DNA from: Clostridiales bacterium
Lineage (GTDB): Bacteria > Bacillota > Clostridia > Oscillospirales > CAG-272
NCBI GenBank assembly: GCA_003523225.1
Contig: DPGK01000033.1
Location: forward strand, 15,771-63,077
Reading direction: 5' to 3'
DNA: 47,307 nt
In this document: piece by piece, positions 17,818 through 32,652 of the stretch
Layout of the letters: each line of letters opens with the position of its first letter
How positions within the stretch are numbered: the stretch's first letter is position 1
The notes under the pieces: generated by a model
Seen by the model: only the letters and a program-made list of their open reading frames with translations
What the model was told of the DNA's origin: nothing
The model's database searches: none
Translations under genes and position numbers: made by a program

Positions 17818-18045
17818 TCATTTCTCCACATCTCCATTGAGAACCCAATTTGCATCATACCCAAATTCGTAAGCAATCACTTTTGCAAGCATGGGAGAAA
17901 TCACCTTGTTCTGATTGTTCCCCGGACGGCTGTTTCCGGTCAATATGTAGACATAATTCATAGATACGCCGATCCGTCTTGCGAATTCGGCTTTTGAGAT
18001 CCCCTGTTCTTTGATTATCTGATTCAAACGATCCCCCAGTGTCAA
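17818..18045 (-). CDS. small XRE-family DNA-binding regulator
   Basis: A 75-residue helix-turn-helix protein: LGDRLNQIIKEQGISKAEFA, then RRIGVSMNYVYILTG is the classic XRE recognition region. The start is an unusual TTG at 18045, supported by AGGAGG seven bases upstream and by a 4-bp overlap (TTGA) with the stop of the LuxR-type gene, which suggests coupled translation. It could autoregulate the unit or have paired with the product of the decayed gene downstream; the latter is a guess. Confidence 0.85.
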   Translation of the reverse strand: MTLGDRLNQIIKEQGISKAEFARRIGVSMNYVYILTGNSRPGNNQNKVISPMLAKVIAYEFGYDANWVLNGDVEK

Positions 18046-19748
18046 GTTACGTCCTCCTCTTTCTGATTCCGCATGACCTCTGCGTACCGCAGCATCTGTT
18101 TGCGCGATGATACGCCGAGCTTGCCCAGAATGTTGTGGTTGTGGTATTTCAGCGTACTTTCCTTAATGCCGGTCAGTGCAAGAATTTCTTTTGCGCTTTT
18201 TCCGGCGAGGTAATACTCAAAAACATTTCGCTCGGCTTCCGTCAGTGTTTGAAGCCCTGCGAGGAAATATTGGTAATCCGCCGGATCGATCTCATTCTTG
18301 CGTGAATAGGCAAGCCGCTCAAGCTCCATCTGTATCCGGTTAAGTTCACTTTGCGCACTGCAGTATTCCGTCTCGATCCTATTAAAATCGTTCAATGCCG
18401 CTTCATATTCCGCTTGCAAGCGGATTTTTTCATTTTCAGCCGTCTGATGCTTCTGGGTAAGGGCACTCACCGTCTCTCCGTGGGCTTTTTCCTGACGGTC
18501 AAGATATTCAATGAGGTCGAGAATCTCTGGAATGTCAGAGCCTGCCTCATCCCGCTTATCTGACTTGATCTGCTCGAGCGCAGAAAGCAGCGGAGACAGA
18601 AAACGCCTGCTGAAATAGCGGCAGAAGCTCACCGTGAAAAACAGCAGCAGAACAAGAAGCAGGATAGTCTGGGCGATACTTTCAAACCGAGCGCGGTCAT
18701 AATCTGCCTTCGGAACCATAACGGCAAGAAGATGCTCGCCGGAACCGGCTGAAATTGAGAGCTTTTTGGTTAGTCCGATATAAATATATGTATCTGACTT
18801 AAAATCGGTAAGTCCGTTGTCAAGCCGAGTGACCGCGTAATCCTCAGTAAGTGCATGAAAATACCCATTTGATCCGCCGCAGACAAGCGACTCCGATGTG
18901 ATCAGGACATTTTCATGTGCAGTTGTCAGAAGACAACTGAGATGTTCGAGCTTTGAGGGCTGTACATGATAGGTCATGAAATAACTGGCGCTGATTTCAT
19001 ATCCGCAAAGGCCATAAAAGGTTCCATCTGCTCCAAGCATGGGAACGGTCAATAGAAGTGCATTTTCAGAGGTTCCCGGCAGGGTGAACAGATCGGTGAT
19101 CCGATACGCCGAGTCAAGCGGAAACGCCGCACCGGAAGATATCTCGGCATAATCGGGAAACATATCTGTCCGGAATTCCAGCCTCCATTTCCGATGCGGC
19201 ATGATCCCGTGCGCTTTGGCAATATCGGCAGATCCGCGATACATCAGTACATCGGCACCCGTTGGGTGATAGCCGTTGATCTGCAAATACAGGCCGGTTC
19301 GGGAAAAAGCCGATTCAGGGAGAGATGTGTTGACGGTGGCATTCAGCATTACAAATGCACCGGAACAGTTTGCCGCAAAGAGCTTCTGACGCAACGGTTC
19401 GATCATTGCTTCCTGTATGTCTGCAGTACCGGATTTTGAATCGTTAAGAGCAGCAAACGAAAGGTCATTTTTCTGCAAATACTCCTCCAGAATAGCGGTC
19501 ATATCCTCTGACAGCGTGATCGCAGAAGCGGCAAGATGATCGAAGTGGGTGCAGATGTCCTTCTCAAAAACCTCCATCTGAATGTCCAGCGCCTCGAAAA
19601 ATGTTTCTTCCGTACTTGTCGTGCGTCCGAATACGATCAGTCCCACGGTCAGTATCAGAAGAAGCAGAAGCGTCAGAAGAAGCATATAAACAAATAATTT
19701 GCTTTTAAGAGACCATGCGGTATATCGGGATGTGGAAGTTTTTCGCAT
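18042..19748 (-). CDS. membrane-bound sensor with LuxR-type DNA-binding domain
   Basis: A 568-residue one-component regulator. A transmembrane helix at about 18-40 and a second at about 368-388 enclose a 325-residue extracytoplasmic sensor region, probably Cache-like (NGYHPTGADVLMY; GADGTFYGLCGYEISASYF). After the second helix come a long coiled coil (about 410-480) and a C-terminal LuxR HTH (about 500-560): LTEAERNVFEYYLAGKSAKE, then STLKYHNHNILGKLGVSSRK. There is no kinase domain, so sensing and DNA binding lie in one chain and the regulator must act from the membrane. It starts 13 bp after the extended frame of the solute-binding protein, which might deliver the signal. Confidence 0.85.
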   Translation of the reverse strand: MRKTSTSRYTAWSLKSKLFVYMLLLTLLLLLILTVGLIVFGRTTSTEETFFEALDIQMEVFEKDICTHFDHLAASAITLSEDMTAILEEYLQKNDLSFAALNDSKSGTADIQEAMIEPLRQKLFAANCSGAFVMLNATVNTSLPESAFSRTGLYLQINGYHPTGADVLMYRGSADIAKAHGIMPHRKWRLEFRTDMFPDYAEISSGAAFPLDSAYRITDLFTLPGTSENALLLTVPMLGADGTFYGLCGYEISASYFMTYHVQPSKLEHLSCLLTTAHENVLITSESLVCGGSNGYFHALTEDYAVTRLDNGLTDFKSDTYIYIGLTKKLSISAGSGEHLLAVMVPKADYDRARFESIAQTILLLVLLLFFTVSFCRYFSRRFLSPLLSALEQIKSDKRDEAGSDIPEILDLIEYLDRQEKAHGETVSALTQKHQTAENEKIRLQAEYEAALNDFNRIETEYCSAQSELNRIQMELERLAYSRKNEIDPADYQYFLAGLQTLTEAERNVFEYYLAGKSAKEILALTGIKESTLKYHNHNILGKLGVSSRKQMLRYAEVMRNQKEEDVT

Positions 19749-19761
19749 ATTCCCGCCTCTT

Positions 19762-21126
19762 TCAATCGATCCCGCAGAAGAATTCCCAAAGCTCCTCGGT
19801 CAGTGCAGCGATGCTCTCACCTTTTTCGGCGCGTTCCGTGAGAGAAGGCTGCATTTTCCGAAGCCCTGCGTACAATGCGTTTGTTTTGTCAAAAAAACCC
19901 GCAAAATCCGGACGGACAACGGGAATATATTCGTCGTACATCGTTTTGATGGCTGTGTAGAGACTTTCATAACCGGCATCGGTAAAGTCTTAGGCTTCGA
20001 TCGCGTCAAACGCGCCGTTTGTCACCGGCATATAGCCAGTACTGACGACAAAATCAAGATTCCGTTTACTTTCAGTGAACCATTTGACAAATTCATATGC
20101 GGCTTCCGCTTTTTGATCGGTCGTTCTGAAAGCGCTCAGACCAACGCCGGTCTGGGGCATATATTCGTTTTCACCGCCTGATTTCGGCAGAGGAAGTACT
20201 TTCAGCTCCATCGCTTCAGAAGTATTGTCGGGATAGGTGACGGTATCGTTGTAATATCCCACAGCTGCTGAGGAACCGATGCCCGAAAGCACCTCGCCGG
20301 TCATGACCTGCGTATTTGCATACAGATCTGATACAACGACAAGTCCCTTTGCAAGAGCTTTTGCGAACATAGAGAAGGACTCTTTTATAGCGGGATCGTT
20401 CTCGTCATACCAACCGCTTTCGGTATATTCCAGCTCTCCGTAGCGGGACAGAATATCCAGTTCCATGTGACGGATCAGGTAGTCAAAGGCACAGAATGCT
20501 TTGCCGTCCGACCATTCATAGTATTTTTCGGCAGCAGTAAAGAAGGAGTTCCAGTCGGATAGGCTGTCATATGTTACGCCTGTATCTGCGGAAAAGCGTG
20601 CAAACTGCGAACCGTTGATAAAGAATGCGTAAGTGGATTTAGACACGGGAAAGACGATGAGCTTTTCATCGATCCTGCCGCTGTCAATAAACTCCGGCAC
20701 ATAAGCATCCAGCTCCTTGTCCGAAAACCACTCACTCCAGTCAAGCAGATTTTCGATGCCGAGCGACGGCACATGCTGTGTATAACAGGAAAAGAGATCG
20801 GGCAGTTCCGGAGTTCCCGGCTTGCCTGCCTGCGCATCAAGAAGCTGCGCCAAAATTTTGGATGTGCTCGTTACATTGGTGACCTGAATCCGTATACCTT
20901 TATCATGTCCGACCGTTTCATTGAATTCTTCGATCAGCAGATTCATGGGAGCGTCTGCCTGCTCACCGTAAACGTGCCAGACCGTAAGCGTGACCGGATC
21001 GCCCGGATCCAGCAATGACTTGTCAGAGTCTATGCTCATGCAGCCGCTCATAGAGATGCAAAATCCTCCGAGCACAAAGGTCAGTAAAAGAATTTTCGAT
21101 AAAATGTGTGCAAGTGTGTTTTTCAT
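19762..21126 (-). pseudogene. solute-binding lipoprotein gene interrupted by an in-frame TAA
   Basis: The continuous frame from the ATG at 21126 codes 378 residues and stops at TAA 19990-19992. It has a signal peptide with the lipobox-like SMSGC (Cys29), a family-1 binding fold, and VTNGAFDAIEA at its end. Beyond the TAA the same frame continues for 75 sense codons (DFTDAGYESLYTAIKTMYDE to LWEFFCGID) to TGA at 19762, giving the roughly 450 residues normal for this family. The C-terminal helices are therefore cut off by one nonsense codon. This may be a real mutation, a strain polymorphism or an assembly error. The start was chosen 30 codons inside the open frame, where GGAG and the signal peptide begin. 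Confidence 0.75.
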
Positions 21127-21531
21127 GATTTTTTTCTCCGCTTTTCGTAATTTTATCGAAAAAACATAAAATATTTTTTCTTTTCCCCACCTTTTGCCCA
21201 TTTGGGTGGGGGACAAAACTCCGAAAATCTGTAAAATAATACTTGAGGTAGGTTCAAGGAGGGTATAAATCTTGCCTTCGGCTTAAAGAAGTTATGGGGT
21301 ATCCTATGTCAAGTCTCCGCAAACGCGCCAATGAATTCGGAGACCGCCCCAACTGTTTTGATTATAATATAGCATATCCTTCAGATTGATTACTCATCAA
21401 AGGAAGGATATGCTTGAATTCGCTACGCTCATTATAGCACAAAATATTGAAACAGTCAATGGTGTATGGCTGTTTGTAATAGGAGTATTAGAAATCCATA
21501 TCAGCATCACAATGAAGGAGGTAAATTTTTT
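21127..21531. other. divergent intergenic region with inverted repeats
   Basis: No gene is supported. It holds a CCCCACC/GGGTGGGG hairpin (21185-21211) ahead of the minus-strand binding-protein gene, a TATAAT at 21363-21368 facing the plus strand without a clear -35 box, and a perfect 12-bp inverted repeat, AGCATATCCTTC (21371-21382) with GAAGGATATGCT (21403-21414). The latter could be a regulator site for the plus-strand module or a mobile-element scar. Confidence 0.5.
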
Positions 21532-21900
21532 ATGCCGAAAAAGAAAACCGCAGCGTATAAAATCATCACCGATTCCGGTGGGAATAGGTATAAGTTCTAC
21601 TGCGACCTGACCGGGGCACTTTTATGTACTACGAAGTCATATCATGCGGACACACCCGAAAGAGAACTTGAACTTGCATGGAATACTGAAGGCAAAGCAC
21701 ATTTTAATTTGTGCCACAAGTGCGGGAAATGGGTCATCGAAGCGATGTTCAACGCAGATGCGTTGGAATGTGTAGCTTGCGCCCCATGGGAAAATACACC
21801 GGAATATTGCAAGTTTTGCGGGACAAAAGTATCTGCCTCCGACGATGTATGTCCAAAGTGCGGAAAGCAGCTTATTTACGGAGGATGCTTCGATGATTGA
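21532..21900 (+). CDS. zinc-ribbon protein, first gene of the envelope module
   Basis: A 122-residue soluble protein. The N-terminal half has an unrecognised fold (YKIITDSGGNRYKFYCDLTG); the second half has paired Cys motifs: CHKCGKW, CVAC, and a double zinc ribbon CKFCG with CPKCGKQL at the end. No signal peptide or membrane segment. AAGGAGG lies before the ATG. It overlaps the next gene by 8 bp. Related zinc-ribbon genes often accompany YdjI/SPFH-like genes in Clostridia, and a remnant of one lies downstream. Function unknown. Confidence 0.8.
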   Translation: MPKKKTAAYKIITDSGGNRYKFYCDLTGALLCTTKSYHADTPERELELAWNTEGKAHFNLCHKCGKWVIEAMFNADALECVACAPWENTPEYCKFCGTKVSASDDVCPKCGKQLIYGGCFDD

Positions 21901-22186
21901 TACCACAAGAAGTCAAAAATATATCCGTCTGGAAGCCTTCGGTATGGGGCCGTATGCTATGAAAAAGCTCAAGATATGTAAAAAATGCGGTCAGATCGCC
22001 GGAGCATGGAGTTTCTTCTGCCCTGCCTGCAAAAGTATAATATCCGGCGGAACATTGTTCGATACATACAAAAGAATGCACGTCCACTGTCCGCATTGTA
22101 AAACAGTTCTCGCTTCGGATACGCAGTATTGTCCGCATTGCGGAAGAAAAGTTTTGCTGAACACGAATGAACAAAGCTTAAAATAA
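21893..22186 (+). CDS. second small zinc-ribbon protein
   Basis: A 97-residue protein with CKKCGQIAG and CPACK (first ribbon, residues 28-45) and CPHCKTVLASDTQYCPHCGR (second ribbon, about 65-85). The ATG is eight bases inside the end of the previous gene with GGAGG upstream, so the two are probably translationally coupled. No enzymatic motif; a metal-binding or protein-contact role is inferred only from the cysteines. Confidence 0.8.
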   Translation: MIDTTRSQKYIRLEAFGMGPYAMKKLKICKKCGQIAGAWSFFCPACKSIISGGTLFDTYKRMHVHCPHCKTVLASDTQYCPHCGRKVLLNTNEQSLK

Positions 22187-22205: not shown

Positions 22206-24935
22206 ATGAAAAAGAGCTTTTTGGTCTATCGAGTATGTACATTTATGCTCTGCCTTGTGCTAATGCTCGTTATATTCCCGATATCGGTGTTTGCGGCGAA
22301 GGATATGTTCACCACATATCAGATCGACGACGTTACAATTACCGGAATTGATACACCGACGGCAGGAAAAACATTCGACTTCACAGCGGAAGAAGCCTCC
22401 CAGAAGTACAATATCATCAAGGTGGCATGGAGAGAGCAGAACGGAAGCAATTACATAACAAGCACCTCGTCGACCGCTTCTGCTGGGAAAAACTATACAG
22501 TTTACGTGGTTCTGGAGGTTGCTACCGCCAATCACTATTTCAATACCGACAGCTCAAGAAGGCCGGCAGTTTCGAGCGTCACCGTAAACGGTAATACTGC
22601 AAGCGCAAGCAATACGCAGGATTACAGCCTTTTCTCTATAGACGCATCCAAATATGAGCACGATACCACGTATCAGAAATATCTGGTCGTTATGTATACC
22701 TTCCCGACGGTTGAGGCGGCTCCCATCGAAAGCGTGGAGTTTGACGTTCCTGCACTTGTACCGGGTGAGCGCGTTCCCACCACGTGGCAAGCCTCGGGAA
22801 TAAGCATTGACGCCATAAACGGAAACGCGAACAACGGTCAGGTCAGTGTCAACAAGGTTGAATGGACTTTGCAGGACGGTACTGCTCTGGCAGGAAATGC
22901 AGTCTTCGAATTCGGCAAGAAATACACGCTGACTCTTACGCTCGGCACGGTCTACGGTGCAAGCTTTGCCACGGACCCGAATCACTTTTTAGCACAACCC
23001 GGAAAACCGTTCCCCACTGTTACGGTTAAAATGAACGGAAAAACAGCCACTGTGCTTCCGACGTACGACAGCTATTCCAATCTGTACGTGGTTGCAGCCT
23101 GCGTATTCGACTGTGATACTGCCGCGCAAATAAAGACGATTGAGCTTACCGGCATTGATGCACCCGTCTCCGGCAAAGCACCCGACTATACCTTCACCGT
23201 CGGTGCGGGATATGAGAATAACGGCAGAAATGATGCTTACTACAAAAATGGTATGTGCTGGTCTGAAGTTGGCAGTTCGTACATCCTCTCTGACGGCACG
23301 CAGGCATTCTTACCAGGCAAGGCTTATCAGGTAGATATCCGCATCAAGGCAAAGGAAGGGTATGAATTTGCCACCAATTCTTACGGTAATGTTTCTATGA
23401 CTGCCACCGTCAACGGCAAGAGCGCAACTGTTTCCGGAAACAGGAACGAAATACTCGTTACATATGCATTCCCCGCTACCGGAAACATTGCCATCAGCAA
23501 GGTTGGTGTCACGGACATTGATGCGCCCGTTACCGGCCAATCTCCCGACTACACCGCGGTGTACAGCAATGTCAACTACGGTGCCGCTGATTATAACAAT
23601 AAATCCACCCAAAACGGCATTTCCTGGTACAACGAAACCGATAAGAAAACTATGTCCACCTTGGACAAATTCGAAGAAGGCAAAACCTATTCCGTTCAGA
23701 TTATGATCTGGACAAACGACGGCTATGAGTTCCAGTATAAATCCGGCTCTGTGAACGTGGTCGCTACCGTCAACGGCAAGAACGCCGAGGTAAGCTCACG
23801 CACCAATGAGGAAGTTACGCTTTATTACACCTTCCCCAAGATAGCGGAACACAAGCATTCTCCGCTGAAGGTGGACGAGGTCAATGCTACCTGCAAGGAA
23901 GCAGGCAAAAAGGCATACTACTTCTGTCCAGAATGCGGCAAAAATTTTGAGGATGCCAAGTGCACTAAGGAAATTGCCGACATAAACTCTTGGGGTAAGA
24001 TCGAAAAGCTCGAGCATACTGGCGGCAAGGCAACCTGCGAAAACCGCGCGATCTGCAAGAACTGCGGTGAATACTACGGCGAGCTTGCCGAGCACAGCTT
24101 TGGAAGTGCGTGGGATTATAAGGATGCATCCGGTCACGCGCACAAGTGTAAGGTTTGCGGCATCAACGATACCATTATTTCTCACAGCGGAGGGACCGCA
24201 AAGTGCGGAGGATTGGCAAAATGCGCCGAATGCAAGGCTGAATACGGCGAAGTGATGCAGCATCAGTGGAGCGAAACGCCGAATTACACCGACAAGAACG
24301 GTCATGCGCATAAGTGTACGATCTGCGGTGAGCACGATACGGTAGTTAAGCACACCCCCGGTGCAGAGGCAACAGAGACGAGCGCTCAGCTGTGTACTGT
24401 CTGCGGCTACATGATCAAGCCGAAGCTTTCGCACGAGCATAGCCTCGCGAAGATGGATGAAGTAGATGCAACCTGCACGACAAGCGGCAAAAAGGCTTAC
24501 TACTACTGCGAATCCTGCAACGCTATTTTCAGCGACAGCAAGGGCAACAACGAGATAGTTGACGGCTCCGAAATTATCATTGAGGCGACGGGACACAAGG
24601 AATCCAAGTGGAAGTCGGATGAGGATACACACTGGAAGGAGTGCACTGTAAAGGGCTGCGGCGAGATTGTCGTAGGAAAAGAAGCGCACGACTTTAGCAA
24701 GTCGGGCAAGTGCACCGTTTGCTCGTACAGACAGGAAAGCGGAGATGATTCCGAGCAGGTATCGGACACTGATGATAAGTCAGACACAACTCCTGACGGT
24801 GAGAAGGTTGACGATGTAGCTCCTGCTTCCGATAATACGGCAATGTGGATCGCAGTGATCGCCTGTGGTATCGTTGCACTTGCCTGCATCATAGTGGTTG
24901 CGGTGGTGCTTACAAAAAAGAATAAGAAAAACTGA
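22206..24935 (+). CDS. large membrane-anchored surface protein with repeated domains and Cys/His modules
   Basis: 909 residues: signal peptide (1-31, ending VFAA), four tandem domains of about 120-130 residues beginning near 38, 173, 311 and 432 with related openings (ITGIDTPTAGKTFDF; LTGIDAPVSGKAPDY; VTDIDAPVTGQSPDY), a region of Cys/His modules (about 548-840; ATCKEAGKKAYYFCPECGKN and HAHKCKVCG types), an acidic Ser/Asp/Thr linker and a C-terminal transmembrane helix (about 878-900) with a Lys/Asn tail. There is no LPXTG, so anchoring is by the membrane helix. It shares the Cys/His modules and tail design with the giant Cys-rich protein at 27016. It is probably exposed at the cell surface; the ligand is unknown. 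Confidence 0.8.
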   Translation: MKKSFLVYRVCTFMLCLVLMLVIFPISVFAAKDMFTTYQIDDVTITGIDTPTAGKTFDFTAEEASQKYNIIKVAWREQNGSNYITSTSSTASAGKNYTVYVVLEVATANHYFNTDSSRRPAVSSVTVNGNTASASNTQDYSLFSIDASKYEHDTTYQKYLVVMYTFPTVEAAPIESVEFDVPALVPGERVPTTWQASGISIDAINGNANNGQVSVNKVEWTLQDGTALAGNAVFEFGKKYTLTLTLGTVYGASFATDPNHFLAQPGKPFPTVTVKMNGKTATVLPTYDSYSNLYVVAACVFDCDTAAQIKTIELTGIDAPVSGKAPDYTFTVGAGYENNGRNDAYYKNGMCWSEVGSSYILSDGTQAFLPGKAYQVDIRIKAKEGYEFATNSYGNVSMTATVNGKSATVSGNRNEILVTYAFPATGNIAISKVGVTDIDAPVTGQSPDYTAVYSNVNYGAADYNNKSTQNGISWYNETDKKTMSTLDKFEEGKTYSVQIMIWTNDGYEFQYKSGSVNVVATVNGKNAEVSSRTNEEVTLYYTFPKIAEHKHSPLKVDEVNATCKEAGKKAYYFCPECGKNFEDAKCTKEIADINSWGKIEKLEHTGGKATCENRAICKNCGEYYGELAEHSFGSAWDYKDASGHAHKCKVCGINDTIISHSGGTAKCGGLAKCAECKAEYGEVMQHQWSETPNYTDKNGHAHKCTICGEHDTVVKHTPGAEATETSAQLCTVCGYMIKPKLSHEHSLAKMDEVDATCTTSGKKAYYYCESCNAIFSDSKGNNEIVDGSEIIIEATGHKESKWKSDEDTHWKECTVKGCGEIVVGKEAHDFSKSGKCTVCSYRQESGDDSEQVSDTDDKSDTTPDGEKVDDVAPASDNTAMWIAVIACGIVALACIIVVAVVLTKKNKKN

Positions 24936-24955
24936 TGATACAGCGAGGTGAACGT

Positions 24956-25525
24956 ATGAAATGGCCGTTCATCGGGCTTGTAGCCGTGTTTGCCGCCGCG
25001 ATTGTCGGCGGCGGCATTGCGGCACTTTGCCGCAGACGTCCGAACATAGAAACGGATGATATAGACGGCGGCGTTGTAAAGCGATACTGGGCTGATGTGC
25101 CGAAGGTGATCAAATCCACCGAAATCGTGACGTTTCACTTTGAGATCTCGCTGTTTGCGGCTTGTAAAACAGATGGTTTAGGTCACCGTGTCTACACACT
25201 GGATGCCGCTCTGAAAGCCGGCGAGGTGCTTGTAAAATACGATTGGTATGACCGCCAGGGCGGGCGTGACAAGGGCGAGTATAAGGCAGACGCGGATTTT
25301 ATGACACGCCTGCAGGAGATAGTCGCAGCACACAATTTTGCACAGCACAACGGATATTACCATACTGTCAGCGGGCTGCCTGATATGTACGGAGAAAGTC
25401 TGGATATCATATATGCAAGCGGCGAGCGGATTTACGTCCATGACAATCAGAGCTGTTTCCTGCCGCATGAAGCAGAAAAAGCACTTATTATGCTGTTCGG
25501 TGCGGCGACGAAACTTGAACATTAA
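24956..25525 (+). CDS. small membrane-anchored protein of unknown function
   Basis: A 189-residue protein with one N-terminal transmembrane helix (MKWPFIGLVAVFAAAIVGGG) followed by CRRRP, which orients it as a type II or N-terminally anchored protein, then a soluble domain with no recognised motif (VTFHFEISLFAACKTDG; DVNIIYASGERIYVHD-like). The start at 24956 is preferred over the ATG overlapping the previous stop (24935) because GAGGTG lies just ahead of it. It is co-directional and close to both neighbours and is probably part of the same transcript. Confidence 0.7.
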   Translation: MKWPFIGLVAVFAAAIVGGGIAALCRRRPNIETDDIDGGVVKRYWADVPKVIKSTEIVTFHFEISLFAACKTDGLGHRVYTLDAALKAGEVLVKYDWYDRQGGRDKGEYKADADFMTRLQEIVAAHNFAQHNGYYHTVSGLPDMYGESLDIIYASGERIYVHDNQSCFLPHEAEKALIMLFGAATKLEH

Positions 25526-25546: not shown

Positions 25547-26110
25547 ATGTCAATCTTTGATAAACTGAAGAAAAACGCACAGACTGCGGTGAAGTCTGCC
25601 GCGGCATCTGCCTTTGCAAGCGAGGAAACCTTTACGTTTGCGGCATTGCCCGAGAGTCTTGCCGAGATGAAAGCTTTGCCTGAAGCATCGCTTGCCAGTC
25701 CCTTTGCGACGGCGGCTCTTACTGTATGCGCACTGTGCGTCTTTGCTGCCGACAAGCAGATCGGCACTGAAATGCTCAATTTCCTGCGCGGTCCCCGTCC
25801 GCTGTCCAATCACGATATCTCGTTTTTGAACGATCGCTTCAGTGACGGTCATCATGTACCGTTCTCCTATTTCAAGGGCGCGGTTCCCGCAAACGATTAC
25901 ACGCCGGACACGCCGTTTATTATAACCGTTACAAGCGGTCTTTATTCCGATGCAAACGAAGGCTATAAGAAGTTATACATCAAGAGCGGCGGCGCGGACA
26001 GTCCGCGTGAGATCGTCCTGAGAAGGCTCGGTGACGGCAGATGGATGCTGTGGGATCAGTTCCTGCTTCTGAGCATCCGTAAGGCGAAATCCGACGATCC
26101 GTGGATGTAA
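25547..26110 (+). CDS. conserved-looking hypothetical protein
   Basis: A 187-residue protein with no signal peptide. The N-terminus is amphipathic (MSIFDKLKKNAQTAVKSAAA); a moderately hydrophobic segment (ALTVCALCVFAADKQIG) is too short and polar to be a sure membrane helix. The rest (GPRPLSNHDISFLNDRFSDG; ADSPREIVLRRLGDGRWMLW) looks like a folded domain. GAGGAGG precedes the ATG. I recall similar genes near YdjI-like genes of Clostridia, but I cannot name a family. It overlaps the next gene by 10 bp. Confidence 0.7.
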   Translation: MSIFDKLKKNAQTAVKSAAASAFASEETFTFAALPESLAEMKALPEASLASPFATAALTVCALCVFAADKQIGTEMLNFLRGPRPLSNHDISFLNDRFSDGHHVPFSYFKGAVPANDYTPDTPFIITVTSGLYSDANEGYKKLYIKSGGADSPREIVLRRLGDGRWMLWDQFLLLSIRKAKSDDPWM

Positions 26111-26574
26111 GAATCCGTATACTGATAACCGTTATGGTATTTACAATGCTGCTTGGATCGTTTGGATGCGGTAGAGAAATGCAAAAAAACGTCACATCGG
26201 CAGGGACAATGACACTTACTTTACGCGGAATGCGCGGCAGCTATGTGTATAAATTCGAGGGTGATGTGACGGAAGTGCGGCGTTATCGGGAAGCCTACCG
26301 TGATGGAGAAGACGAGCTTGTGCTTGAGTCGACCGCACCCTGCGGTGTGCAGACTATGATCGAACTTATGAACACCTGCGGCATCCTTCGTTGGGACGGC
26401 TTCCACGGCAAACATCCCAAAAATGTATCTGACGGAATCATGTTCTGCTTTGAGGCGACGGTAAACGGCGGACAGATGATCCGTGCTGAAGGTTCTGCGA
26501 ATTTTCCGAAAGGTTACCACAAATTTGTGCGCGTTCTGGATGCAATGCTCGCAGAGCACGAAAAGACAGAATAA
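26101..26574 (+). CDS. probable small lipoprotein of unknown function
   Basis: 157 residues, starting with a GTG inside the end of the previous gene. Residues 5-20 are hydrophobic and end at GSFGC, a lipobox-like site with Cys23. The mature part (TLTLRGMRGSYVYKFEGDVT, with Cys residues at CGVQ and CGIL) has no motif I recognise. Translational coupling to the preceding gene would explain the weak ribosome-binding site. The lipoprotein call is moderate because position -3 of the lipobox is not aliphatic. Confidence 0.65.
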   Translation: MDVRIRILITVMVFTMLLGSFGCGREMQKNVTSAGTMTLTLRGMRGSYVYKFEGDVTEVRRYREAYRDGEDELVLESTAPCGVQTMIELMNTCGILRWDGFHGKHPKNVSDGIMFCFEATVNGGQMIRAEGSANFPKGYHKFVRVLDAMLAEHEKTE

Positions 26575-26593: not shown

Positions 26594-26838
26594 ATGGGAC
26601 TTATTGAAGCGATTACCGGGTCAGCAGGCGGCGTGCTGGCTGACCAATGGAAAGAGTTTTGCTACTGTGGTTCCATTGCCAACGATATCCTGATCGTCAA
26701 GGGACAGAAACGAATCAGCGGACGTTCCTCCAATATAAAACGATTGCAAAGCAAGAAAAATCGGACAGCTCCGGTTCTTCATCGACACATATCGCGGGCT
26801 CCGGCACCACAGTCGGCGGCGGTGGCGGGAAATTCTAA
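26594..26838 (+). pseudogene. internally deleted SPFH/YdjI-like gene
   Basis: AGGAGAG and ATG at 26594 begin a frame whose first 48 residues (MGLIEAITGSAGGVLADQWK, then KGQKRISGRSSN) look like the start of YdjI-type SPFH-domain proteins, which usually exceed 300 residues. After that the sequence changes, in another frame, to a tail (KTIAKQEKSDSSGSSSTHIA, then GSGTTVGGGGGKF) that looks like the C-terminal end of the same family, stopping at 26836-26838. The middle is therefore missing and head and tail are out of frame. The uninterrupted frame runs to 26866 with a meaningless C-terminus. Family call is from memory of the N-terminal motif. Confidence 0.6.
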
Positions 26839-26910: not shown

Positions 26911-26970
26911 AAATTGCTCTCAAAATGGGTCCCAACCCATTTTGATTTGCTTTGCAAATACGAGCAATTT
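26911..26970 (+). promoter_or_regulatory. nested hairpin upstream of the giant Cys-rich gene
   Basis: CAAAATGGGT (26921-26930) pairs with ACCCATTTTG (26935-26944) around CCCA, and outside it AAATTGCTC (26911-26919) pairs with GAGCAATTT (26962-26970). It may end transcription of the preceding module, although no clean T-run follows, or act as a leader structure. It overlaps the promoter predicted at 26952-26980. Confidence 0.45.
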
Positions 26971-26980
26971 TAATTAAAAT
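26952..26980 (+). promoter_or_regulatory. predicted promoter of the giant Cys-rich gene
   Basis: TTGCAA (26952-26957), 17-bp spacer, TAAAAT (26975-26980), about 35 bases ahead of the start codon. Its -35 box lies inside the outer loop of the nested hairpin. Confidence 0.45.
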
Positions 26981-27015
26981 ATATTTGAGCCCCCTGTGGC
27001 GGCATGGAGATTAAA

Positions 27016-30000
27016 ATGAATCAGAAAATGAAAAGAATATGGGGTATACTGCTCTGCTTTTTGCTGTTGATCGGAACGAATTCGGGATATATACGGTCTA
27101 ACCAGATACATAGTCATGCCGGGCAGGAATTATCGTACGACGATCACGACCATGACGAACATGATTCTCAATATGCAATCGATCTGCTATCGGTTTGTGA
27201 GAATATTCTTGAGTTCTCACTGTCACTCTTTGCGATGCCGGTATATGCCGCCTACGAGGATGGTGTAGAATGCGAGCATTGCGGTAGTTGGCGGTATGAC
27301 GACTGGAAATGCGATAACGGCGATCACTGCGGTGAAGGCTCGGGCACGTCCTGCTACGAGGAGCATCATTGCGGCTACTGCGGCGCGTGTGACGATGACC
27401 ACGAGCTGTGCGACGACTGCGGGAACTGTCTCGACGAATGCTGCGAGTGCGACGAAAAATGCCGCGGCTGCTATTCGACGAGCGGGGACGTCTGCGACTT
27501 GTGCAACGAGCACTGTACGGAGTGCGTCGATTTCATCTGCGACGACTGCGGCATCTGCACCGAATGTGCGGGTAACGAGCTGTACTGCTCCCAGTGCATG
27601 CTGTGCATCGGCTGTGCGGACTGGATCTGCTACTGCGGCGAGGGCTGCTCGGAATGCACCACCGGCTGCGAACAATGCTATGAAAAGTGCTTGAACTGTG
27701 CAGAAGATGAGCTTTGTACCGACTGCGGAACCTGCTTTGACTGTCTCGGCGGCGAGGGCAACTACTGCTCTGAATGCCTGCTGTGTAAATTCTGTACGGA
27801 ATACATATGTGAATGCGGCAGGGGCTGTAGCGAGTGTGTCCTGATCTGCGAACAATGCAAAGAAAAGTGCGAGGAGTGCGCCGACGGCGGTATCTGCGAG
27901 GACTGCGGAACCTGCTATGACTGTGTGGGCGGAGACGGCAACTACTGTCTGAACTGTAATCTTTGCAAATTCTGCGTTGATTACGTCTGCGTCGGATGTG
28001 GTGAGGGCTGCTCGGAATGTGCCATAATCTGTCCGGAATGCGGCGAGAAGTGTGAAAACTGCGCGGACGATGAGCTGTGCGGCGACTGTGAGGTGTGCTT
28101 TACTTGTCGCGGCGGCGAGGGTAATTACTGCTCCGATTGCGGAGTGTGCAAAATGTGCGTTGAATATGTCTGTGCCTGTGGAAACGGCTGCTCGGAGTGC
28201 GCATACATATGTGCCGAGTGCGGCGAAAAGTGTACAAACTGTGCCGAGGATGAGCTTTGCATAGAGTGCGGAATATGCTTTGATTGCGTCGGCGGAGAGG
28301 GCAATTACTGCTCCAGCTGCGGATATTGTAAAAACTGCGTGGATTATGTCTGCTACTGCGGAAACGGATGCTCGGAATGCTCCGTAATCTGTGTGGCTTG
28401 CAGCGAAAAATGTGAAAATTGTGCTGACGATGAGCTGTGCGCCGAGTGCGAGCGCTGCTTTGACTGTGCAGGCGGCGAATTCTGTGCCGAATGCGGAGAA
28501 TGCGGTGAATGCGTTGAAGTTCTGTGTTCCTGTGGCAACGGATGTAATCAGTGCGCCGATGTGATATGCGAGAGCTGCGGTGAAAAATGCTCAAACTGTG
28601 CACCGGATGAGTTGTGCACGGAATGCGGCACCTGCCTTGAATGTGTAGGCGGTGAAGGTGACTTCTGCACTAATTGCAGTATCTGTAAATACTGTGTGGA
28701 TCACGTCTGCGTCGGATGCAGCGGGGGCTGCTCAAACTGCGCCGACATATGCGAGGAATGCGGTGAAAAATGCTCCAACTGTGCGGGCGATGAGCTTTGT
28801 ACCGATTGCGGTGTCTGCCGCGATTGTGTGGGCGGCGACGGTAACTTCTGCGACACCTGCGCTATCTGTAAAAACTGCGTGGACTACATCTGCTTTAGTT
28901 GCAGTCAGGGTTGCTCGAACTGCGCGGAGATATGTCCTGAGTGCGGCGAAAAGTGTAGCGAATGCTCGGACGGCGAGCTATGCACCGATTGTGGAAACTG
29001 TATAAACTGCGTTGGCGCGGAGGATTTCTGCGCGGTGTGCTCGCTCTGCCTTGAATGTGTGGAAGCGGTGTGCGCCTGCGGAGAGGGCTGCTCCAACTGT
29101 GCCACCGTCTGCGCGGAGTGTAACGAGAAATGCTCTAACTGCTCCGTTGGAGAGGTGTGCACGGAATGCGGCACGTGCGTTGACTGTGCCGGTGCGGACA
29201 GCTTCTGCATAACATGCGGACTCTGCACGGACTGCGGCGTCGTCTGCCCTTGCGGTGAGGGATGCGAAAACTGTGCGGATATCTGTCCGGACTGTGGTGA
29301 AAAATGCTCAAACTGCACGGATGAATTCTGTGCGTCCTGCGATATATGTCGGGAATGTGCGGATGATCTCTTCTGCGAGGACTGCTATCAGTGCGGCGAA
29401 TGTACGGAGATCTGCGAGGACTGCGGCACCGTCTGTGCAGACTGTGCTGAGAGCGTGTGCGAGGAGTGCGGTAAGTGCTCCGGATGTATTGATGAATTCT
29501 GTCCCGACTGCGGCATCTGTATCGACTGTGCCGACAGAATGTGCCGCGACTGCTATTACTGCGGCGACTGTGCCAACAACATCTGTGTCGACTGCGGTGA
29601 ATACTGCTCCGACTGCACCGGATTCTGTACGGAGTGCGGAAAATGCGAAAGCTGCGTGGAAATCTGCCCCGATTGTGAGCTGTGTGAGGATTGCTGCGCA
29701 GAAAGTGCAGAGAATTTCGGCTGCAACCACGGTATCTGCCCCGAAAGTGCCGCGTGGAAAAACCATTACTGCTCCAAGGGCGGTCACTGCGTCGGCAAAT
29801 CAAGTAAAATTGAGCACGATGAGGATGAGCACTGGACGGTCTGCGGCAACGGATGTGATATCATACTGAATTCTGAACTGCATACTTTCGGTGAAAGTAC
29901 GGTTACAAAGGAAGCAACGAAAACGACTGACGGTGTGATGAAATTCACCTGTTCTGTTTGCGGCTTTGTAAAGGAAGAAGCTATTCCGAAGCTGACCGAC

Positions 30001-30957
30001 GGACATACACATGAGTATACCGCTGTTGTAACCAAACCGACGTGTGAATCGGGAGGATATACAACGCATGCCTGCGAGTGCGGTCATACGTATACGGATA
30101 TGCAGACACCTGCTGTAAAGCACAATTACGTTCATAAGCATACCGAATCCGAGCACTGGCGGGAATGTGAATACTGCCACACGACCACGGAAAAATCCGC
30201 TCATAAGATGGGTGCGTGGACAACGGTTTTGAAAGCGGGATACACTTTCGAGGGAGAAAAGCAGAGTGAATGTAAGATCTGTGAATACACAGTCAAGGAG
30301 ATTATTCCTGTACTGGGCGTTCCCGACGGCAAATTGGTCGTCGTCATCCCGGACTATGAAAAGTATATTTCGACTGGGTCCGTGTCTTCAAGCGAAACAC
30401 CTTCGTCCGATATTTCGGGCAAAACCGAATCGTCCGGTTCGACAACAACTCCGAGCGGCAGCGAAGCAGCAACGCCTCCGAGCTCCGAAATTCAACCGTC
30501 AGGAAAAAATCACCATGCGACAAAAGAGCTCGTAACAAAGGGTACGGATAACACCGTTCCGGCACTGCCTGTGCTTCCGCCGACGGAAGCCGGCAATCAG
30601 TTTGACGGCTGGGTAAATAAGGCAACCGGAGAACCGGTGAAAAAAGGCGATACGCTGACCGAAAATATTGAGATTGAACCTGTCTGGAAAGATTGCGGAG
30701 AAGATAAGCACACCGATATAGACGAAGACAATCACTGCGACAAATGCGGATATATCATGGTGAATGAAGTCAAGCCTGAAGATACAGCGGCATCAACAGA
30801 TGAAACCACTGAGGACTCCGGGCATGAAGATGAAAAAGCACCGAAGGATAACAGCGATGGTGTACCAAGCTGGTTTATAATTGTGATTTCGTGCTTCGGC
30901 GGAGTGATTGCTATCTGTGGTGTTGTTTTGGCAGTTGTTCTGCGGAAAAAGAAATAA
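27016..30957 (+). CDS. giant Cys-repeat surface protein with C-terminal membrane anchor
   Basis: 1313 residues from the ATG at 27016 (GGAG six bases upstream; an ATG four codons earlier has no site). Order: hydrophobic N-terminus (8-20), a metal-ligand-like HDHDEHD patch (44-50), a second hydrophobic stretch ending AMPVYAA (about 73-79), an irregular Cys-rich part (85-205), then about twelve tandem units (206-894) of 57-62 residues with up to 16 Cys each, mostly CxxC alternating with Cx3C. After these come CxxC/His modules like those in the 22206 protein, a Ser/Thr linker, an InlB-B-like repeat (VLPPTEAGNQFDGWVNKATG), and a final transmembrane helix with RKKK. No heme CxxCH series and no catalytic motif. 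A thiol-rich metal-binding or disulfide-locked stalk is inferred. Confidence 0.85.
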   Translation: MNQKMKRIWGILLCFLLLIGTNSGYIRSNQIHSHAGQELSYDDHDHDEHDSQYAIDLLSVCENILEFSLSLFAMPVYAAYEDGVECEHCGSWRYDDWKCDNGDHCGEGSGTSCYEEHHCGYCGACDDDHELCDDCGNCLDECCECDEKCRGCYSTSGDVCDLCNEHCTECVDFICDDCGICTECAGNELYCSQCMLCIGCADWICYCGEGCSECTTGCEQCYEKCLNCAEDELCTDCGTCFDCLGGEGNYCSECLLCKFCTEYICECGRGCSECVLICEQCKEKCEECADGGICEDCGTCYDCVGGDGNYCLNCNLCKFCVDYVCVGCGEGCSECAIICPECGEKCENCADDELCGDCEVCFTCRGGEGNYCSDCGVCKMCVEYVCACGNGCSECAYICAECGEKCTNCAEDELCIECGICFDCVGGEGNYCSSCGYCKNCVDYVCYCGNGCSECSVICVACSEKCENCADDELCAECERCFDCAGGEFCAECGECGECVEVLCSCGNGCNQCADVICESCGEKCSNCAPDELCTECGTCLECVGGEGDFCTNCSICKYCVDHVCVGCSGGCSNCADICEECGEKCSNCAGDELCTDCGVCRDCVGGDGNFCDTCAICKNCVDYICFSCSQGCSNCAEICPECGEKCSECSDGELCTDCGNCINCVGAEDFCAVCSLCLECVEAVCACGEGCSNCATVCAECNEKCSNCSVGEVCTECGTCVDCAGADSFCITCGLCTDCGVVCPCGEGCENCADICPDCGEKCSNCTDEFCASCDICRECADDLFCEDCYQCGECTEICEDCGTVCADCAESVCEECGKCSGCIDEFCPDCGICIDCADRMCRDCYYCGDCANNICVDCGEYCSDCTGFCTECGKCESCVEICPDCELCEDCCAESAENFGCNHGICPESAAWKNHYCSKGGHCVGKSSKIEHDEDEHWTVCGNGCDIILNSELHTFGESTVTKEATKTTDGVMKFTCSVCGFVKEEAIPKLTDGHTHEYTAVVTKPTCESGGYTTHACECGHTYTDMQTPAVKHNYVHKHTESEHWRECEYCHTTTEKSAHKMGAWTTVLKAGYTFEGEKQSECKICEYTVKEIIPVLGVPDGKLVVVIPDYEKYISTGSVSSSETPSSDISGKTESSGSTTTPSGSEAATPPSSEIQPSGKNHHATKELVTKGTDNTVPALPVLPPTEAGNQFDGWVNKATGEPVKKGDTLTENIEIEPVWKDCGEDKHTDIDEDNHCDKCGYIMVNEVKPEDTAASTDETTEDSGHEDEKAPKDNSDGVPSWFIIVISCFGGVIAICGVVLAVVLRKKK
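27634..29697 (+). repeat. twelve tandem coding repeats, period about 171-186 bp
   Basis: Units begin at about 27634, 27814, 27997, 28177, 28357, 28531, 28717, 28900, 29077, 29251, 29422 and 29593, each opening with a Cys codon of the CGxGC type. Steps are always multiples of three, so length changes keep the frame. Units 1-8 keep the full pattern with ELCTDCG and GGEGNYC; the last units are shorter and lose the glycine-rich loop. Confidence 0.9.
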
Positions 30958-31800: not shown

Positions 31801-32652
31801 TTATTTGCGCTGTCTCTTTCCGGTGCTTTCAAGGTACTGCCTCATTGCAAGCACCCAGTCGGTCTGGATTATGTCATATCCGCGGTCGGCAAGCCAGCCC
31901 CAGCCGAGGTCGGGGTCTACCGTCAGCGAGGTATCGTCGGAATGTCCCGCGGCAAGCTGAGCCTTGTAGTTGTAGATTATTGCGTTTGCCCACACAAGCT
32001 TTCCGGCGCTGTGCAGCTTTTCAATGAAATCGGTCGTGCCGACATAGTTTTCTTCGCTGTTGAAGACGACTTCCGCACCGACATAGTTTATGTTGCGGCG
32101 CATAAGCTCCTCGTGTACGCCGTTGTCGTTCTTGAGGATGGGCAGATACTGAATTTCCGGCGCGTACTCCTCGATAATGTCGAAAAGCTCCGCCTTGGGG
32201 GAGGTCTTTACGATTATCTGGTTTTCCATTCCGTGGGCGCGGATAGCGTCGGAGATCTCGCGGGGGTTCTCCCAGAATTTATCCACGTTTATGTAGCAGC
32301 GCCCTTTGAAGCGGTCAAGCACTTCGTCGAAGGTGCAAAGACCGAACTGCGTGTAGTCGCGGTCATAGTTTACATAGCGCAGGCGGCGTATTTCCTCGTC
32401 GGTAAGCTCGGAAAGGCTTGTCTTGCCCTCTGTGCCGAGGTAGTTGAGGTGTCTGTATTCCATCTTGGGATGCAGGATCCACAGCGTGCCGTCGGCGCTT
32501 TTGTTTACGTCGACCTCGATCATGTCCGCGCCGTGCGATACCGCGATACCGTACGAGGCAAGGGTGTTGCAGGGAATATTCCCGCCGCAGGAGCCGCGGT
32601 GAGCGACGATTATTATCCGCTCGGCGGCGTCTTTTTTAATGTCGAATGTCAT
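31801..32652 (-). CDS. glycerophosphodiester phosphodiesterase family protein
   Basis: A 283-residue protein with the GDPD TIM-barrel signature: IIIVAHRGSCGGNIPCNT near 13-30 with the catalytic HRG, then IEVDVNKSADGTLWILH near 44-61 with the metal-binding Glu-x-Asp and the second catalytic His. It ends GYDIIQTDWVLAM, the usual (T)D motif. The family hydrolyses glycerophosphodiesters; some members act on teichoic acid or other phosphodiesters. No signal peptide, so it is cytoplasmic. It starts 45 bp after the ABC permease with AAAGGA upstream and is the third gene of that unit. Confidence 0.88.
   Translation of the reverse strand: MTFDIKKDAAERIIIVAHRGSCGGNIPCNTLASYGIAVSHGADMIEVDVNKSADGTLWILHPKMEYRHLNYLGTEGKTSLSELTDEEIRRLRYVNYDRDYTQFGLCTFDEVLDRFKGRCYINVDKFWENPREISDAIRAHGMENQIIVKTSPKAELFDIIEEYAPEIQYLPILKNDNGVHEELMRRNINYVGAEVVFNSEENYVGTTDFIEKLHSAGKLVWANAIIYNYKAQLAAGHSDDTSLTVDPDLGWGWLADRGYDIIQTDWVLAMRQYLESTGKRQRK

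Follow-up and report, generated by a model that had tools for sequence, protein, structure and literature searches.

How might a bacterium hold together an exported protein in which a long central stretch, here called the rod, consists of cysteine (Cys) by more than a quarter? The question is raised by a gene at 27016–30957 on the plus strand of a 47,307-nucleotide stretch of DNA from an uncultured, gut-type Clostridiales bacterium (assembly GCA_003523225.1, contig DPGK01000033.1, positions 15,771 to 63,077), hereafter called the window. Obligate anaerobes are described in an excerpt of PMC12453122 as tending to exclude Cys from exported proteins, and the family to which this protein belongs is unusual because it keeps its Cys nearly unchanged, which is the opposite tendency. 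The reading we favour, and to which we give a little better than an even chance, is that of a surface-anchored rod held by metal-thiolate coordination, with Zn(II) as the most likely metal.

The cysteine-rich rod and its family

The open reading frame (ORF) starting at 27016 encodes 1313 residues, and an in-frame ATG further upstream at 27004 would extend it to 1317; the later start is the better one because the relatives L005, P0014 and P0018 open at the equivalent Met, with MNQK (residue numbers below are nevertheless counted from the upstream ATG). The protein holds 239 Cys, and 219 of these fall within the 823 residues of the rod (residues 90-912), mostly as CxxC, which occurs 127 times when overlaps are counted. 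The rod is strongly acidic, with 170 Asp and Glu against 30 Lys and Arg, and is composed of three zones, namely residues 90-214, which open with a cap motif and hold 30 Cys, residues 215-753, in which nine units of 58-62 residues have exactly 16 Cys each, and residues 754-898, made up of four-Cys modules that are each about 14 residues long. A DNA repeat family (D1) has nine copies of 115 nucleotides with a spacing of 177-183 nucleotides and 62-73% identity to the reference copy, and in 15 listed rods the lengths differ by roughly multiples of 60 residues and 15-17 Cys. A first-pass annotation, made by a model from the sequence alone, had described a 1313-residue chain with a leader, an HDHDEHD patch and a C-terminal membrane helix; all are present by ORF and hydropathy, and its Cys spacing was right, while its twelve 60-residue units have to give way to the three zones above.

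At the C-terminus the Kyte-Doolittle profile peaks from about residue 1291 and is followed by RKKK, with a Ser/Thr/Pro-rich linker between this helix and the His/Cys domains, which were delimited by eye. The leader, again by eye, looks to be of Sec type and has no twin-arginine motif. A location on the surface, also proposed at first pass, is supported by the leader and the C-terminal helix (by eye and hydropathy), together with the SLH, choline-binding, CWB2 and dockerin anchors of the relatives.

The Cys of the rod are almost fixed. Among 29 non-redundant orthologues, three of 5187 ungapped Cys cells in residues 84-912 are non-Cys, all three being His, as counted in columns with at least 70% Cys and with exclusion of cells that have gaps up to the neighbouring Cys columns. 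In 11 loci (L001-L010, L012), 1-5 of the 78-239 aligned Cys codons are changed non-synonymously while 21-99 are exchanged between TGC and TGT, and 26-52% of the non-Cys codons change their amino acid; L007, for instance, has 223 Cys codons with 99 TGC/TGT exchanges and 2 non-synonymous changes, against 498 non-synonymous changes in 1000 other codons. Since the Cys codons are nearly free of non-synonymous change while TGC/TGT swaps abound, the rod is, judged from these codons, under selection and not a product of chance. The Cys and His of the N-cap are invariant in two alignments (A1, A2). Homologues with conserved Cys spacing exist, so that their absence, which the first-pass annotation had named among the grounds for refuting its reading, does not apply.

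Neither Pfam nor NCBIfam has a family covering the rod, which bears out the earlier remark that the arrangement was not a recognised one: NCBIfam gives no match at all on the window protein, Pfam gives only a weak PF09479 match outside the rod, no Pfam zinc-ribbon family matches the protein at E 0.1, and a PDB sequence search returned two chance-like matches only (best E 0.069). A first protein search found 243 relatives, with 22 at 59-99% identity among the 120 listed, and a scan of genome contigs found 25 loci labelled Oscillospiraceae, Clostridia, Lachnospiraceae, Eubacterium and, once, Cloacimonetes; 15 of their titles name a ruminant sample and the rest name none. The Cloacimonetes locus (L025) was dropped by eye, being not exported and probably a compositional match. 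When distant members were used as queries in a second search, 76 proteins matched at E 1e-10, and 65 of these were new; among all 76, 24 are annotated with SLH and nine with dockerin. Anchors recognised by Pfam are SLH on L011, L014, L024 and P0147, choline-binding repeats on L013, CWB2 on P0022 and Dockerin_1 on P0161 and P0171; the Pfam scan gave no family on L016, L017, L021 and L022, and no recognised anchor on P0157. The distant Cys-rod proteins (L013, L014, L016-L022, L024) are 827-1651 residues long with quite different tails, which suggests an extracellular module that has been reused. Where a distant relative lacks the N-cap, its match may be one of composition, too; L023 lies outside the rod-composition set and was not entered in alignment A4. 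As far as comparison of sequences goes, the rod family is real, conserved, exposed on the surface through several anchors, and unnamed in the libraries searched.

In each of 10 genomes, all matches to the rod fall within a single open frame, and in G163 matches lie on two contigs. Within the taxonomic family of G004, matches occur in 13 of 295 genomes, of which five were already known and three more carry, by eye, the L004, L011 and L012 genes; in the class and phylum samples G004 alone matches (1/391 and 1/398). By this model and at this threshold, the close family is patchy in its distribution and rare elsewhere. The proteins P0026-P0120 represent one relative, mostly annotated with SLH, in many 90%-clusters; they are closely related, since the N-cap start is present in 87 of them and 84 of those share the same 611-residue, 166-Cys rod. 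L037 (G255:C135:4575-4871) matches the N-cap and contains one in-frame TGA, which may mark a decayed copy or an error in the sequence.

What may hold the rod together

In the favoured reading, Sec would export the chain unfolded, and the CxxC knuckles would capture Zn on the anoxic cell surface, folding the chain into a stiff rod of knuckle hairpins; each 16-Cys unit would bind about four Zn, and the whole rod some 55. The linker rich in His and Asp, together with the His/Cys caps, would serve as sites where metal is collected or as terminal sites for it, and the rod would be kept on the cell by its C-terminal anchor. Metal would stand in for disulfides that the hosts appear unable to make, and the likely role would be that of a protease-resistant envelope stalk or coat which also acts as a metal buffer. 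The first-pass annotation had offered three hypotheses, a Zn/Fe-thiolate reservoir, a redox-sensitive stalk and a disulfide-locked, protease-resistant fibre. Among these, the metal-thiolate one is favoured over the fibre because of the replacement of Cys by His, the His-rich linker of close relatives, the predicted knuckle-like hairpins and the lack of an oxidase profile match in nine of ten hosts.

Replacement by His is found in the units, too. Of 4636 well-placed cells in an alignment built from 394 distinct unit hits, 13 hold a residue other than Cys, namely five His, four Ile, two Asp, one Gly and one Thr. His is the commonest replacement though it needs two base changes from Cys, and its codons are CAT in L004 and CAC in L008; the changes reachable in one step are represented by one Gly only, with no Tyr, Arg, Ser, Phe or Trp. 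At the N-cap, His and Cys largely alternate among the relatives: the loop has HC without an extra Cys in 33 of 47 distinct sequences, the extra Cys without HC in 9, both in 5 and neither in none (5 more regex matches, which by eye fall within rods, were excluded, and the pattern missed 31 of 116 sequences). The His-rich linker, defined as at least four His in 15 residues between residue 21 and the N-cap, is present in 29 of 48 sequences with duplicates between the L and P sets kept. A scan for His at ±3 of unpaired Cys peaked at several offsets, mainly from the caps, and was not used.

For residues 690-1090, AlphaFold2 (AF2) run on 11 sequences reached a mean predicted local distance difference test (pLDDT) score of 64.7, with 80-87 over residues 830-899, in one of five models, the others having means of 38-49. 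Along residues 830-899 of this model the bridge-assigned residues are 6-8 apart, mostly 7, and the assignments fall in turn on the third Cys of a module and on the residue that precedes a CxxC. Compared with the usual geometry of zinc-knuckle hairpins, this pattern suggests hairpins of that type in the terminal modules only, the pairing being deduced from assignments that do not name the bridge partners. Foldseek on the model gave probabilities of at most 0.23 among the 50 matches listed, including RNA-polymerase subunits and one rust-fungus effector, to which no weight is given, and the short list from VIA-align, mainly over model residues 244-312, held no convincing relative.

The main rival is a disulfide-locked, protease-resistant fibre. 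Once exported, its CxxC would be oxidised, either by outside oxidants or by some unknown catalyst, into a disulfide ladder of the kind proposed in part for the variant-specific surface proteins (VSPs) of Giardia. Such a ladder would agree with the even number of Cys, 16 per unit, and neutral disulfides would suit an acidic rod poor in Lys and Arg. Known oxidases are scarce among the hosts, however: the VKOR profile matches 0 of 10 host genomes against 3 of 14 controls, DSBA 1 of 10 against 8 of 14, and Thioredoxin_4 1 of 10, at the same place as the DSBA match, against 9 of 14, in a scan by Pfam profiles only over metagenome-assembled genomes (MAGs) of untold completeness, with the window's own genome not included and SdbA-type oxidases not sought. 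Absence of an oxidase is weak evidence from one genome and stronger from nine. The excerpt of PMC12453122 bears on both sides, since some obligate anaerobes are said there to fold a few secreted proteins with partnerless DsbA-like proteins, whereas the tendency to exclude exported Cys speaks against the fibre. Neither the change of Cys to His nor the exchange of His and Cys in the N-cap can keep a disulfide, which also disfavours the fibre, and we hold this explanation to be unlikely, if still worth some weight. Mostly free Cys might instead form a reduced-thiol sponge for oxygen, electrophiles or heavy metals, with structure being secondary. The extreme content and conservation of Cys would agree with it, and so would the finding that most of the tested hosts match no profile of a known oxidase; but a sponge could do without fixed spacing, without an exact count of 16 Cys in each unit and without Cys and His replacing each other at set positions, and the terminal modules give a regular, fairly confident model, which makes the sponge improbable. 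A surface wire of iron-sulfur clusters or another redox metal is suggested by the CxxCxxCxxC runs, which recall 4Fe-4S ferredoxin motifs, and yet it seems very improbable. The spacing differs from the ferredoxin pattern CxxCxxCxxxCP, the window rod has no CxxCH for haem (39 of 5013 CxxC across 51 sequences, duplicates kept, are CxxCH), and pre-assembled clusters would not be exportable because the leader looks to be of Sec type, without a twin-arginine motif. Both multihaem and Fe-S readings were rejected on the zero CxxCH and the wrong motif spacing.

Several observations weigh against metal-thiolate coordination itself. One rod host, G008, does have a DSBA match (E 2.5e-35), which counts in favour of the fibre. 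Eight of the 13 replacements in the units are not His, four of these eight at a variable CxC/CxxC place, and the same context surrounds four of the five His, in L004, L008, L011 and P0019, although these proteins are 52-62% identical; the shared context therefore points to few events, perhaps one or two. In the SLH set of 95 proteins (duplicates kept), 6 of 17749 Cys cells are replaced and none by His, the replacements being three Tyr, one Gly, one Phe and one Arg, of which by eye five lie outside the rod and one Tyr inside. The linker has 0 or 1 His in most distant loci (L013, L014, L017-L022, L024). An already acidic rod would become still more negative with Zn-thiolate sites, and in metallothioneins Lys stands next to Cys. 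The AF2 model of residues 84-398, which cover the N-cap and the first units, is poor when built from 15 sequences, with a pLDDT of 50 and a predicted template modelling score (pTM) of 0.24. Finally, the upstream stretches from six sources are free of Zur-like sites at fewer than 3 mismatches and of Fur-like sites at 4 or fewer; one Zur-like site with 3 mismatches lies near window position 21145, and both scans look chance-like.

Taking the metal-thiolate rod further, we propose with slightly less than even confidence an undescribed family of bacterial surface modules, in which CxxC knuckles about every 7 residues would form the rod, folding on anoxic cell surfaces would be driven by metal in place of disulfides, and the anchors (membrane helix, SLH, choline-binding, CWB2, dockerin) would be swappable. 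That the family arose independently of the protist VSPs belongs to the same proposal and is held no more firmly. If true, the rod would be the anaerobe counterpart of disulfide-stabilised coats. A metal-bound rod would mean another route to stable extracellular structures without oxygen, a large metal-binding capacity on the surfaces of gut microbes and a new modular rod. The rod is in any case a testable domain family that is unnamed in the libraries searched.

Comparison with known systems

By its possible mode of action the rod most resembles the Giardia VSPs (PF03302), which are likewise membrane-anchored, CxxC-rich surface proteins of a gut organism; the window protein has the same type of layout, with a CxxC-rich ectodomain and a single C-terminal membrane helix by hydropathy. 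Giardia VSPs make up a large variant repertoire of which one is expressed at a time. The single matching frame per genome gives no sign of a repertoire at that threshold, with G163 having matches on two contigs. Unlike the VSP-type layout, many rod relatives anchor by SLH, CWB2, choline-binding or dockerin, and the window rod differs from VSPs in its regular units, 16 Cys per about 60 residues. Descent from VSPs is not supported by the profiles, as PF03302 has no match in the window protein at E 0.1 and is above cut-off in 0 of 10 host genomes; one sub-cut-off match (E 0.43) in G004 is on a contig other than that of the rod. In the excerpted text of PMC6341118, a VSP became trypsin-sensitive after reduction or chelation, which metal reversed, and the protease resistance of VSPs depends on metal and/or disulfides.

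Other likenesses are more partial. Zinc ribbons and knuckles (CPxCG) may share the hairpin-like pattern predicted by AF2 around CxxCGxC in the terminal modules, and there too His may replace Cys; the rod differs in having no Pfam zinc-ribbon match, in its many overlapping CxxC and in its place on the cell surface. Metallothioneins share the very high Cys content and the proposed metal-thiolate core, but they are small and cytosolic, unlike an anchored acidic protein of 1300 residues with periodic units. CdeC of Clostridioides difficile, compared by description only, is also a Cys-rich surface protein of a clostridial bacterium, but it is a spore protein and is listed as disulfide-bonded in the excerpt of PMC12453122; no observation here points to spores. 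The S-layer homology domain-containing proteins P0127 and P0147, from Oscillospiraceae and Anaerovoracaceae MAGs, have a related N-cap and Cys rod, the N-cap loop of P0147 being of the Cys form; they differ in having an SLH anchor in place of the membrane helix, and their name gives a domain and no function. A search of the open-licence PMC literature found no paper on such a bacterial family, by which absence from print is not claimed.

Features of the locus and gene neighbourhood

Coordinates of the rod gene, its parts and the upstream genes in the window (loci out of 25)
Feature	Position	Strand	Residues	Remarks
909-residue exported, membrane-anchored protein with similar His/Cys motifs	22206..24935	+		Topology by eye; no Pfam family above cut-off
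196-residue protein	24935..25525	+		Without Pfam family; recurs in 9/25 loci
DUF6935 protein	25547..26110	+		PF22043, E 5.4e-51; recurs in 8/25 loci
157-residue lipoprotein-like gene	26101..26574	+		By eye; recurs in 6/25 loci
SPFH/Band_7 gene, 5' remnant	26594..26740	+		About 49 codons; intact in L002, L006
Terminator-like hairpin	26920..26945	+		11 pairs; between SPFH remnant and rod gene
Coding sequence of Cys-rod protein	27016..30957	+	1313 in all	Start supported by N-termini of L005, P0014, P0018
Hydrophobic Sec-type leader	27016..27090	+	5-29	By eye
His/Asp-rich linker	27109..27165	+	36-54	HSH...DDHDHDEHD
N-cap	27253..27381	+	84-126	CxxCG-RYDDW-C-x4-HC-...-CY-xx-HHC-xxC
Less regular Cys-rich run before repeats	27382..27645	+	127-214
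Nine tandem units	27646..29262	+	215-753	58-62 residues, 16 Cys each
Terminal 14-residue modules	29263..29697	+	754-898	CxxCxxCxxC or CxxCxxxCxxC plus 3-4
C-cap	29698..29808	+	899-935	GCxHxxC ... HYCxxGxHC
His/Cys domains	29809..30273	+	936-1090	EHWxxC..., HTHxY...TCxxGGYTTHxCxCGH; zinc-ribbon-like by eye
Weak similarity to List_Bact_rpt (PF09479), sub-cut-off	30526..30657	+	1175-1218	Pfam E 0.0093, 16.5 bits against cut-off of 27
C-terminal membrane helix and RKKK tail	30868..30954	+	1289-1317

Upstream of the rod gene, four genes recur among the loci. The 909-residue neighbour is found in 9 of 25 loci (L001, L003, L005-L010, L012), where matches of its query in L016 and L024 are the rod protein itself and were not counted; the counts for the other three genes each include a weak match in L024. 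All are lower bounds because many loci end early, and none of the four is found in L004, L013, L014 or L016-L023. The remainder of the SPFH gene is absent from the window, and its first 49 residues match in 5 of 25 loci (L002, L003, L006, L011, L015), lying downstream of the rod in L003 and L011. L002 and L006 have a Band_7_1 protein with a sub-cut-off double zinc ribbon; a DUF4428 protein is found in L010, and DUF4428 as well as TPM proteins in L006. In an excerpt of PMC8581546, the SPFH protein YdjI of B. subtilis is required for connecting PspA with the membrane when the envelope is stressed, and from gene position in a minority of loci we infer that the rod may be linked to envelope stress.

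Promoter-like hexamers at 26952-26980 follow the hairpin. The motif scan found 4 terminator-like sites against 3.6 expected and 10 promoter-like sites against 3.9 expected; it gave no plus-strand terminator-like site after the rod gene, where a hand-written terminator pattern was also unmatched, and Rfam over the window gave nothing at gathering scores.

Further genes stand around this group. Two small overlapping zinc-ribbon-like genes lie at 21466-21900 and 21845-22186, the second above the Pfam DZR cut-off and the first just below it; the former recurs in L001 and L009, and the latter in L001, L005 and L009. On the minus strand at 18042-21216, a LuxR-type (GerE) gene stands beside a gene for an extracellular solute-binding protein, both recurring in L001, L005, L009 and L010, and just downstream of the rod gene, at 31801-32652 on the minus strand, there is a glycerophosphodiester phosphodiesterase with DUF4996.

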